Assembly (NCBI GenBank): GCA_028285065.1
Contig: JANQQG010000126.1
Span: forward strand, 1-48,655
DNA from: Phycisphaerales bacterium
GTDB lineage: Bacteria > Planctomycetota > Phycisphaerae > Phycisphaerales > UBA1924
Direction of reading: 5' to 3'
DNA length: 48,655 nucleotides
The position numbers and the translations under genes were made by a program. The notes under the pieces are model-generated. The model ran no database searches, was not told where the DNA came from, and saw only the letters and a program-made list of their open reading frames with translations. This document shows positions 28,113 to 31,365 of this stretch, one piece after another; position 1 is the stretch's first letter, and the number at the start of each line of letters is the position of its first letter.

Positions 28113-28140
28113 TGTGCCCTTCTTCCCTGCGTCACACGAG

Positions 28141-28253
28141 CGCCATGGAGGCGGAGCGACCCTCCCACAGGTGCGCCGTCCATGGCGAAGCCAACAGAAA
28201 CAGATTGGAATACATGGGCGGAGCCATTTCGGCTCGACGCCCATGTGGGAGGG
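28141..28253 (-). promoter_or_regulatory. Structured nrdJ leader with competing stems
   Basis: Three inverted repeats lie between dcd and nrdJ. A: CGCCATGGA (28141-28149) with TCCATGGCG (28179-28187). B: ACATGGGC (28212-28219) with GCCCATGT (28239-28246), extended inward by GAGCC/GGCTC. C: CCCTCCCACA (28160-28169) with TGTGGGAGGG (28244-28253). A and C cross, and B and C share three bases, so C excludes the other two. This topology suits a switch or attenuator. No cobalamin-riboswitch B12 box or NrdR box is visible. Confidence 0.4.
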
Positions 28254-28263
28254 AGGCGTTGAG

Positions 28264-28836
28264 TCAGTCCACCAAGGGGAGCGTGAGCCCGCTCTGATCC
28301 TGATACTTGCCGCTCTTGTCCGCGTATGAGACTTCGCAGACTTGCTCGGCCTTGAGGAAGATGAGCTGAGCGATGCCCTCCCGCGCGTAGACCCGCGCGG
28401 GCAGTGGCGTGGTGTTGGAGATCTCGAGTGTGATGCACCCGCGCCACTCGGGCTCGAGGGGTGTCACGTTCACGATGATCCCGCAACGCGCGTACGTGCT
28501 CTTGCCGACGCAGATGGCAAGGACGTCGCGTGGGACGCTGACGCGCTCGACCGTCTCGGCCAGCGCGAAGGAGTTCGGAGGGATCACGATGTGATCCGTG
28601 CCGAGCTCGTCGGTGTCGAGCTCGACGAACAGGTCGGGGTCGAATGTCTTTGGATCAACGACGGTGACGCCACCGGTCTTCGGCGTGGGCGTGAAGACCT
28701 TGAAACGCGAACCGACGCGGATGTCGTAGCCGTAGCTGGAGACGCCGTAGGAGATCTTCCCTGGCCGCTTCTCAGCCGGCTCGTAAGGCTCGATCCCGAT
28801 GGTCTCGCGGATCTGAGCGTCGCAGAGGACTGGCAT
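28264..28836 (-). CDS. dcd: dCTP deaminase
   Basis: 190 residues, the usual size. Deaminates dCTP to dUTP, the precursor of dTMP; some homologues are bifunctional and also hydrolyse d[13 protein letters not shown] (111-120) and [15 protein letters not shown] with the catalytic Glu138 are intact, and the C-terminus is [14 protein letters not shown]. Bifunctional and monofunctional forms are not distinguished with certainty. ATG 28836 follows GAGG at 8 nt, replacing a longer in-frame extension. nrdJ follows 151 nt downstream after a structured leader. Confidence 0.93.
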
Positions 28837-28919
28837 ATGTCGAACCTCGCTCCCAGAAAGCAGATGTCGGTGTCCAGGTTCTCGTCTCGGAGGGACCAAA
28901 CCGGCTTCCGACGGCGGGC

Positions 28920-28947
28920 AGGATACCACTACCTGTTGTGGCTTCAA
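28920..28947 (-). promoter_or_regulatory. Promoter candidate for dcd
   Basis: On the minus strand TTGAAG (28947-28942), 16-bp spacer, TATCCT (28925-28920). Each box has 4 of 6 consensus matches. It would give a leader of about 75 nt. Confidence 0.4.
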
Positions 28948-28983
28948 GGAGCTTTCACACGAAATGCAGGGCACTTGGTGGTC

Positions 28984-29428
28984 GGAAGCTGTCGATTGCT
29001 TCCAAGGGTCCCAAGCACAGCCGCTTGCGCGCTTCAGATTTTTTCAAGTGCGGATCGCGAGCACCAGGATCATGTACCCGCCCCCGGCACGGGACTGGGG
29101 AGAAGCACACCATGTGGTGTGAGGCGGCCCGGCCCGCGCCGGGCGCGCCGACCCAATCGCCCGTCGTCGACAGCGATCGACAGGGGCCCCCCGCTGGGAG
29201 CCCCACGATCGCTCGGGACCACCCAGGTGAGAGCCAGGAACCGGCGGACAGAGCGGGGCGAACCGCTGCCGTCGGGGCGGCAGGACGGAACCCGTCCAGA
29301 ACGGAGCCGTCAACAAGCCGGGGAGGGCGCCGAGAAGGCCCTGAGGGCAGGCGCGCGGGCCTACCGTCACTCCCAGCTTCGCTTGTCCGTTGCTCCGCCC
29401 GGGACCGGGCCTAGACCTCCGACGGAGG
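28984..29428 (+). other. Gene-free, hairpin-rich region before the FlgI-like gene
   Basis: The 600-nt gap between dcd and the lipoprotein gene has no convincing gene. It holds a series of stable inverted repeats: GGAAGC/GCTTCC (28984-29003), CACACCA-TG-TGGTGTG (29106-29121, operator-like), AGCGATCG/CGATCGCT enclosing GGGGC/GCCCC (29172-29213), GGACGG-AAC-CCGTCC (29283-29297), and CCTCCG-A-CGGAGG (29416-29428), whose right arm contains the Shine-Dalgarno of the next gene. A TTTTTT run ends at 29044. It may be a long structured leader or contain a small RNA; I see no known RNA family. Confidence 0.35.
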
Positions 29429-29439
29429 CGTCGAGCCGC

Positions 29440-31365
29440 ATGAGAATCACAAAGCGAGTGTTGACAACGACTTCCATCCCTCACCATGCCGGCCGCACCA
29501 GGCTGGGGCTCGTGGTGAGCTGTGCGGTCCTGCTCGGACTGGGAGCGTGCGCGGGGCGCCGCGGTCCGGCACCGACGGCACGCGCATCGCGGGACATCGT
29601 GGTCCGGGATGTGCCACCGATCCTGCGCGGGACGATCGGCGCCGAGGCGTCGATCCGTGGGATCGAGCCGCAGCTGATCTCTGGGTTCGGGATCGTCGTC
29701 GGCCTCAACGGCACGGGCGGTTCGCAGATGCCCGTGCAGGTGCAGGCGACGATGGAGCGCGAGCTCGCGCGCGGGGGCGTGTCGCTTGGCGGGATCGGGG
29801 ACATGGGGTCGCTCGAGGGTGTGACGCCGCGTGCGTTTCTCAGTGACCCCGGGACTGCTGTCGTGATCGTGGAAGCTGCGATCCCTCCCGGCCTTCCGGA
29901 GGGCGCCGACTTCGATGTGTACGTGCGCGCACTGCCGAACTCGGACACGACGAGCCTCGAGGGCGGTCGTCTGTGGACCACGGAGATGACGATCGGCCCG
30001 GCGACAGTGTTCGGGGGCGTCAGGACGCGCTCGATCGCGAAGGCAACGGGCGAGGTCTTCATCAACCCGTTCGCGGATCCGTCGGGCGTCGGCGTCGATC
30101 CGGTCAACCGCACGCGCGGGCGCGTGCTGGGGGGCGGTCGCGTCACGCAGCCGCTGACGCTGGAGATCGTGCTGGACAACCCGTCGCACACGCGAGCACG
30201 AGCGATCGTGGCGGCGATCAACTCTCGCTTCCCCGAGGGCCCGGGCGATCGCGGCGCGATCGCACGCGGGCGCACGGACGAGAGCGTCGCGCTCAGCGTC
30301 CCGGTGCGCTACCGCGACAGGCCGGCCGAGTTCATCGAGTTGATCAACCACCTGCGCGTCAACCAGCAGCTGCAGCGCGAGTACGCACGGGTCTGCGTCG
30401 AGCAACTCAAGGACCGCCCGGGACTGAGCGAGTCGATCTCGTGGTGCCTCCAATCCGTGGGCCCCTCCGCGATCCCGTTCCTCCGTCCCATGTACACGTA
30501 TCCCGAGGTGCGACCGCGACTTGCGGCCCTTCGCGCGGGCGCCCGGCTGGGCGATGCGCGGAGCGTCCCGTTCCTGATCGAGCTTGCTCGGACGGGTCCA
30601 GCGGGGCTGCGAACGCGGGCGATCGAGCTGCTCGAGTCGATGCCTCAGGACACGCGGATCGACATGGCGCTGCGTGAGCTCCTCGACGACGGCTCGCTGG
30701 AGGTCCGCGTTGCGTCCTACGAGGCACTCGCGGCCCGGTACGCCCCGTGGGTATCGCGTGCGATGGTGGACGACAAGTTCGAGGTACACAGCGTGCCCTC
30801 GCGCGAGCCGATGGTGTACATCACGCAGCAGGGCAAGCCCCGGGTGGTCGTCTTCGGCGAAGCGTCCGGCTTCGTCAAGCCACTGCTCGTGGACGCGTGG
30901 GACCACCGCCTGCTCATGACGTCGGGCGACTCCGAGGGTGAGCCCGTGCGGATGCGGTACCGGAACGAGCGTGGGGTGGTGCGAACGCTGGACCGGGTGC
31001 CGGAGGACCTCGCGGGGTTCGTGCGGACGATCGCGCACGAAGAGACGCCCGAGGACCCGCGTCCGGGCCTGGACTTCTCGTATTCGCAGGTGATCAGCGC
31101 GCTCTACGCCCTGCAGAAGCAGGGAGCGATCGGCGCGATGCTGACGACCGAGCGGGACCGCCTGCGAGCGGAGATCTACCGGGCGTCTCGCTCGACGCTG
31201 GTCAGCGAGCGTCCCGAGTCCACATCGGCCGGGGACCCCACGGAGGAGCCGGAGTTGATCTTCGAGCCGGAGGAGCTCGGCGAGCGCCGGCCCGAGGAGC
31301 TGGAGCCGGACGTGCCCTGGCGGGTGGTGCCGCTGACGCCGGCGCCCACGGGCGGCGGTGCGTAG
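29440..31365 (+). CDS. FlgI-like lipoprotein with HEAT-type repeats
   Basis: 641 residues. A lipobox LGAC (residues 34-37, Cys37) ends the signal peptide, so it should be a lipoprotein. Residues about 55-290 resemble the flagellar P-ring protein FlgI: ISGFGIVVGLNGTGGSQMP, FLSDPGTAVVIVEAAIPPGL, FDVYVRALPNSDTTSLEGG and TTEMTIGPATVFGG correspond to its conserved blocks. Residues about 330-440 contain HEAT-like repeats (GLRTRAIELLESMPQDTRI). The tail is acidic and Pro-rich. GGAGG at 29424-29428 is 11 nt before the ATG. No flagellar genes are nearby and the smc gene follows. The role may be an envelope ring or scaffold, not necessarily flagellar. Confidence 0.75.
   Translation: MRITKRVLTTTSIPHHAGRTRLGLVVSCAVLLGLGACAGRRGPAPTARASRDIVVRDVPPILRGTIGAEASIRGIEPQLISGFGIVVGLNGTGGSQMPVQVQATMERELARGGVSLGGIGDMGSLEGVTPRAFLSDPGTAVVIVEAAIPPGLPEGADFDVYVRALPNSDTTSLEGGRLWTTEMTIGPATVFGGVRTRSIAKATGEVFINPFADPSGVGVDPVNRTRGRVLGGGRVTQPLTLEIVLDNPSHTRARAIVAAINSRFPEGPGDRGAIARGRTDESVALSVPVRYRDRPAEFIELINHLRVNQQLQREYARVCVEQLKDRPGLSESISWCLQSVGPSAIPFLRPMYTYPEVRPRLAALRAGARLGDARSVPFLIELARTGPAGLRTRAIELLESMPQDTRIDMALRELLDDGSLEVRVASYEALAARYAPWVSRAMVDDKFEVHSVPSREPMVYITQQGKPRVVVFGEASGFVKPLLVDAWDHRLLMTSGDSEGEPVRMRYRNERGVVRTLDRVPEDLAGFVRTIAHEETPEDPRPGLDFSYSQVISALYALQKQGAIGAMLTTERDRLRAEIYRASRSTLVSERPESTSAGDPTEEPELIFEPEELGERRPEELEPDVPWRVVPLTPAPTGGGA

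Follow-up and report, generated by a model that had tools for sequence, protein, structure and literature searches.

Predicted alternative folds in the nrdJ leader of a Phycisphaerales bacterium: a candidate lineage-specific RNA switch

The spacer between dcd and nrdJ in an uncultured Phycisphaerales bacterium contains three perfect inverted repeats that exceed chance expectation and whose helices are predicted to compete with one another. Our results tentatively favor a model in which this spacer is a lineage-specific, cis-acting leader of the nrdJ mRNA that would tune translation initiation by means of alternative folds. Among the explanations that we considered, such an attenuator or coupling leader is the most likely, with a neutral origin of the structure ranking next. 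For the present, the leader makes a good candidate for an RNA switch confined to its lineage and not for a new riboswitch class.

The window, that is, the whole stretch of DNA analyzed here (48,655 nt), comes from a fragmented genome of 262 contigs that is 87% complete. The gene order on its minus strand is dcd, a gap of 151 nt and then nrdJ (Table 1). The flanking genes had been identified from the sequence as dcd and a class II nrdJ, and matches above cut-off to TIGR02274 and TIGR02504 agree with this identification. The sole ribonucleotide reductase (RNR) gene detected in this bacterium is nrdJ, and NrdJ is likewise the only aerobic RNR detected in 41 related genomes, including the window's own. 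Because the class I small subunit (PF00268) was found in none of these 41 genomes, NrdJ is probably essential in these bacteria, and nrdJ looks like their only aerobic route to dNTPs. The divergent neighbor of dcd, at 28342-31365 on the plus strand, is a single open frame in which a flagellar P-ring FlgI domain is followed by a HEAT-repeat region, an unusual fusion.

Table 1. Features of the dcd-nrdJ locus (window coordinates) and of the hairpin at nrdJ in sister families (locus coordinates)
Feature	Coordinates	Strand	Remarks
nrdJ, adenosylcobalamin-dependent class II ribonucleotide reductase, 1195 aa	24525..28112	-	TIGR02504 564.8 bits (over cut-off); PF08471, PF02867, TSCPD
dcd, dCTP deaminase	28264..28836	-	TIGR02274 over cut-off; start M inside P0002
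dcd-nrdJ spacer / nrdJ leader, 151 nt	28113..28263	-	single copy in assembly
Pyrimidine strand GCCUCCCUCC, just after dcd stop	28247..28256	-	can pair with SD region, or via 28247-28253 with stem C 3' arm
Stem C 5' arm CCCUCCCACA	28244..28253	-	10 nt, perfect; 19-nt extension 28235-28253, 84%
Stem C 3' arm UGUGGGAGGG	28160..28169	-	extension 28160-28178
Stem B 5' arm ACAUGGGCG	28238..28246	-	9 nt, perfect; inner stem GAGCC 28231-28235
Stem B 3' arm CGCCCAUGU	28212..28220	-	inner stem GGCUC 28221-28225
Stem A 5' arm CGCCAUGGA	28179..28187	-	9 nt, perfect
Stem A 3' arm UCCAUGGCG	28141..28149	-	pairs with 28179-28187
Alternative small hairpin H, CGCC(AUGGAC)GGCG	28174..28187	-	CsrA-type ANGGAN hexaloop; overlaps stem A 5' arm
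Purine-rich Shine-Dalgarno (SD) region of nrdJ AGGGAAGAAGGG	28117..28128	-	AGGGA at 28124-28128
Sister-family hairpin, L058	894-921	-
Sister-family hairpin, L061	1438-1465	+
Sister-family hairpin, L066	890-917	-
Sister-family hairpin, L184	2419-2446	-
Sister-family hairpin, L188	1437-1464	+
Sister-family hairpin, L190	2389-2416	-
Sister-family hairpin, L205	1438-1465	+	further examples in other loci

A direct repeat search recovered exactly three inverted-repeat pairs in the spacer, at the positions given in the initial annotation. The one correction concerns stem B, whose place and inner 5 bp were right but whose outer helix is 9 bp long rather than 8 bp. The mutually exclusive geometry read from the sequence also held up: stem C shares bases 28244-28246 with B and interleaves with A, and the simultaneous formation of A and C would need a pseudoknot. 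This set of 10, 9 and 9 bp was absent from 5000 dinucleotide shuffles, and two repeats of at least 9 bp arose in only 0.06% of shuffles. When the window was cut into 647 overlapping tiles of 151 nt, the set turned up once, in the leader itself. The minimum free energy of the leader corresponds to a folding z-score of -2.6, which ranks 4 of 158 nrdJ leaders. A repeat family or mobile element was ruled out, as the leader is single-copy in the assembly.

The competing folds are predicted to be closely balanced, at -69.0 kcal/mol for A+B and -66.6 kcal/mol for C, a gap of about 2.4 kcal/mol; these and all other energies and pairing values were obtained with the default energy model and one thermodynamic parameter set. 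When the transcript was folded stepwise, B appeared earliest (probability 0.98), C stood at 0.92 once the transcript reached 28158, and on extension to 28116 stem A reached 0.95, with SD:anti-SD pairing at 0.69. The flip to A+B coincides with emergence of the purine-rich SD, because the pyrimidine strand at 28247-28256 pairs with it. The mean unpaired fraction of the SD was 0.36 in the free ensemble, 0.83 with C forced and 0.87 with the dcd-stop region masked to mimic a terminating ribosome. The same masking lowered predicted AUG exposure from 0.94 to 0.34, and the sign of the effect is uncertain because AUG exposure falls while the SD opens. Pairing of the SD with the first 20 nt after dcd was 0.51, compared with 0.02 in shuffles, 1 of 40 of which was as high. 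Stems A and B were robust, A staying at 0.90 or higher for 15 of the 16 sets of transcript ends tried; pairing of the SD with the pyrimidine strand ranged from 0.16 to 0.70 depending on the ends chosen, under default parameters. By predicted energies, then, the leader has the mutually exclusive folds with different SD exposure that are looked for in a translational attenuator or coupled leader. Of the initial suggestion of an attenuator or riboswitch acting on nrdJ, it is the idea of a regulatory device, and not the riboswitch, that these folds sustain.

These predictions point to a translational mechanism, in which alternative folds suggest attenuation by SD sequestration or coupling to dcd. 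Hairpin B would form first during transcription, and helix C, built from the 5' pyrimidine strand and UGUGGGAGGG, would follow and partly displace it. Emergence of the SD region would then shift the equilibrium to A+B, a fold in which the pyrimidine strand after the dcd stop would be freed from C and able to cover the nrdJ SD. The SD would be opened by any factor that maintains C, and likewise by one that occupies the pyrimidine strand, such as a ribosome terminating on dcd. Translation of nrdJ would be expected to be coupled to that of dcd, and to be low when dcd is not translated. The repeats with their statistics, the gene order and the calculated energies are what we have shown; we infer that these folds may arise in vivo, that dcd and nrdJ are probably co-transcribed, and that the leader would regulate nrdJ in response to a signal that sets the balance between folds. 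Translational coupling with SD sequestration is a known regulatory mode in operons. The likeness lies in a strand near the upstream stop that can cover the downstream SD and would be freed by a terminating ribosome; the difference is that in the window this strand also takes part in the third helix, C, resulting in a predicted three-way competition.

Conservation of the stems in relatives, set beforehand as the test on which the regulatory idea could fail, gave a negative answer. Our search covered many Phycisphaerales genomes; no homologous leader was found among 60 relatives, and the 10/9/9-bp set was present in 1 of 158 nrdJ leaders from the order, that of the window. A single 24-nt match to the leader occurs in another genome (L002), outside nrdJ. 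The leaders of nrdJ are generally unstructured, with a mean folding z-score of 0.0 over the 158, and across these operons the SD does not generally pair with the sequence that follows the dcd stop (mean 0.06 vs 0.07 when shuffled). A conserved, widespread riboswitch class is thus not supported, and a genus-level or lineage-specific device would be compatible with the data. The closest NrdJ in our search shares only about 80% identity and comes from another genus, so the comparison excludes a broad class and leaves room for a lineage-specific device. Such a device is supported by the position of dcd, which in most relatives precedes nrdJ in the same orientation, sometimes by 39-60 nt, but the absence of the structure from all sampled relatives and the unstructured state of most nrdJ leaders count against it.

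It is quite conceivable that the repeats arose by chance or through neutral evolution of a GC-rich spacer and play no regulatory part, in which case the dcd operon would drive nrdJ expression and the structure would simply be tolerated. The repeats are conserved in none of the 157 other nrdJ leaders, and in relatives the dcd-nrdJ spacer measures anywhere from 39 to >1000 nt and can contain unrelated genes. The mean z-score of the leaders is 0.0, three leaders besides that of the window show equal or greater structure, and scanning 158 leaders is expected to turn up some outliers. A neutral origin accounts less easily for a repeat set unmatched in 5000 shuffles and in the other tiles of the 647, or for balanced alternatives with an SD-complementary strand inside the switching element.

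The survey of relatives also yielded several observations in their own right. Short genes lie between dcd and nrdJ in five loci (L007, L025, L026, L037 and L049); their products carry ...SYRDL.AWQ.A... or a similar sequence and appear four-helix-bundle or S23-like by eye. The nrdJ leaders of family f4 (L019, L027, L030 and L047) contain a palindromic repeat of the GGTCCGCACGGCGGACC type, with two related copies in L030. Three loci (L111, L153 and L160) derive from public MAG records titled Cyanobacteria, Isosphaera and Leptolyngbya; their nrdJ region groups with Phycisphaerales by identity, and they are probably mislabelled.

A separate covarying RNA motif, without an Rfam match in the loci scanned, is present at nrdJ in the sister families f5 and f6. 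The nrdJ leaders of these families carry a hairpin with an ANGGAN hexaloop, which together with its closing pair is mostly UACGGACG or CACGGAUG, on a stem of about 8-10 bp that is mostly located 50-60 nt before the start and is often followed by UUCAUAAACG (Table 1). In alignment A1, which comprises 17 hairpins partly chosen for pairing, the stem shows 31 two-sided changes where shuffles give 9.1, a count that none of 500 shuffles equaled; 86.9% of cells are paired, a share that falls to 30-48% when the alignment is slid. CAUAA follows the stem in 7 of the 17 hairpins, where 0.1 would be expected. Because the A1 hairpins were partly chosen for pairing, we made an independent cross-family test in which a model, R2, built from f5 only (A2, 7 hairpins) was run on 33 f6 loci (119.5 kb). 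The eight best matches, and 11 of the best 12, were at nrdJ leaders, which make up <2% of the sequence searched. When a model from both families was run on 51 whole f6 genomes, 7 of the top 9 matches were nrdJ leaders, one of them outside the training set.

The window leader shares with the sister-family hairpin the gene, the position in the leader and an ANGGAN hexaloop, but it has neither the longer stem nor the CAUAA. With the sister-family model R1 it scored only 5.2 bits, too little to place it in that motif, and the f5-trained model matched no nrdJ leader in the window's family. Matches to R1 near flgF and clcA in the window's own genome were rejected, as neither is close enough to a start and the one linked to flgF falls within what may be a small ORF. 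A class-wide search with R1 was uninformative; most matches were either GC-rich palindromes within genes or repeats in intergenic DNA. Palindromes of sequence GGCCGGCAGGGACGCCGGCC with the same ANGGAC loop occur in L242, L243 and L254, in tandem in L243, and also in other genomes of the class; they are possibly a dispersed repeat family. As a further observation, three f6 genomes of genus g55 (G057, G113 and G116) have no close NrdJ and only a distant reductase, with ~35% identity over the matched stretch and frames of ~1010-1030 aa, suggesting that the usual reductase may have been replaced.

An ANGGAN hexaloop placed directly on a stem is a high-affinity CsrA/RsmE site (PMC4005645, PMC7652899), and we infer by analogy that CsrA may bind the sister-family hairpin. 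The window leader contains the sequence for a hairpin of this geometry, H, together with a GGA at the SD; the spacing from H to the AGGGA of the SD, ~50 nt, is within the 10-63 nt over which CsrA can bridge (PMC7652899). We regard H as a lead. It is unlikely, but worth setting out, that CsrA controls nrdJ in this bacterium: H would show AUGGAC when C forms, CsrA would bridge H to the AGGGA of the SD, and A would hide the site. Beyond the hexaloop geometry, the spacing and the covarying hairpin at nrdJ in the sister families, this idea is favored by the presence of two CsrA genes in the window's genome, and of CsrA in 101 of 101 genomes searched; in a by-eye alignment with E. coli CsrA, the first of these two proteins retains R6 and R44, the arginines that contact RNA. 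H was reached in 0.2% of shuffles, but this probability is post hoc, as H was spotted after the sister-family motif. Moreover, H cannot form while stem A is formed, and it is predicted to be present in ~1% of the full-transcript ensemble. The low score with the sister-family model and the failure of the f5-trained model in the window's family also argue against CsrA control, as does the finding that such hairpins are only weakly enriched among that family's distal leaders (4 vs 0.5 with 3 bp, and 1 vs 0.2 with 4 bp). For the window's family, ACGGA at the SD was also considered as a sign of CsrA control and rejected, because its occurrence does not differ from that in dcd leaders (p = 0.82). 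In comparison with the CsrA/RsmE hairpins of the glgC and hcnA leaders (PMC7652899, PMC4005645), H likewise places an ANGGAN hexaloop on a stem upstream of an SD carrying AGGGA, but its stem is only 4 bp and, in the final predicted fold, would be buried within stem A. We found no paper that links CsrA with nrdJ regulation. Still more doubtful is a Phycisphaerales-wide control of nrdJ at the RNA level, in which the sister families would use an nrdJ-specific CsrA-type hexaloop hairpin with its downstream UUCAUAAACG, and the three-helix switch of the window would embed an equivalent in H, alternately hiding and showing H and the SD.

We consider it very unlikely that hairpin B simply terminates transcription of dcd or marks its 3' end, with nrdJ transcribed from its own downstream start. 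A strong GC-rich hairpin does lie right after dcd and is followed by a U-containing stretch, but no site in the spacer passes a scan for intrinsic terminators (GC stem plus U run), no sigma-70-like promoter was found there, and the dcd-nrdJ gap of 39-60 nt in several relatives fits co-transcription.

Searches of the leader for known regulators of B12-related genes and of RNR genes were negative. Cobalamin riboswitches are known cis-regulators of B12-related genes, and known riboswitch aptamers are conserved. At other places in the genome, cobalamin riboswitches score above cut-off in 37 of the 41 relatives, whereas the window leader has no sequence or structure match to the family (RF00174, covariance model) and none was detected in the window's own incomplete genome. 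The Rfam scan that had been proposed for an nrdJ-associated or cobalamin model was equally negative: Rfam 15 gave no match in the window at the gathering score and none credible at E<=10, the best relaxed match being Ocean-VII at 10.1 bits against a cut-off of 53.5, and nothing credible was found on 17 related loci. A riboswitch for adenosylcobalamin or a dNTP, for which a B12-dependent enzyme, the lack of a class I small subunit in 41 genomes and the alternative structures might speak, is therefore the least probable explanation, and the sensing of either ligand proposed at the outset finds no backing in these scans, in the relatives, none of which has the structure or a conserved core, or in nrdJ leaders at large, which are generally unstructured. 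NrdR is encoded in this genome, as would suit NrdR regulation of RNR genes, but no pair of NrdR boxes (~16 bp each) was found in the leader (best match 9/16) or in the region upstream of dcd (best 11/16), and the original reading that the leader has neither a B12 box nor an NrdR box is consistent with these results.

In the literature that we found, tuning of a B12-dependent sole reductase in Planctomycetota is not described. If the nrdJ leader works as proposed, it would represent a mode of RNR control that involves neither a riboswitch nor NrdR. With the hairpin of the sister families, control of dNTP synthesis by CsrA can be put to a direct test and, if such control is real, regulation at the RNA level would tie dNTP supply to the Csr system.
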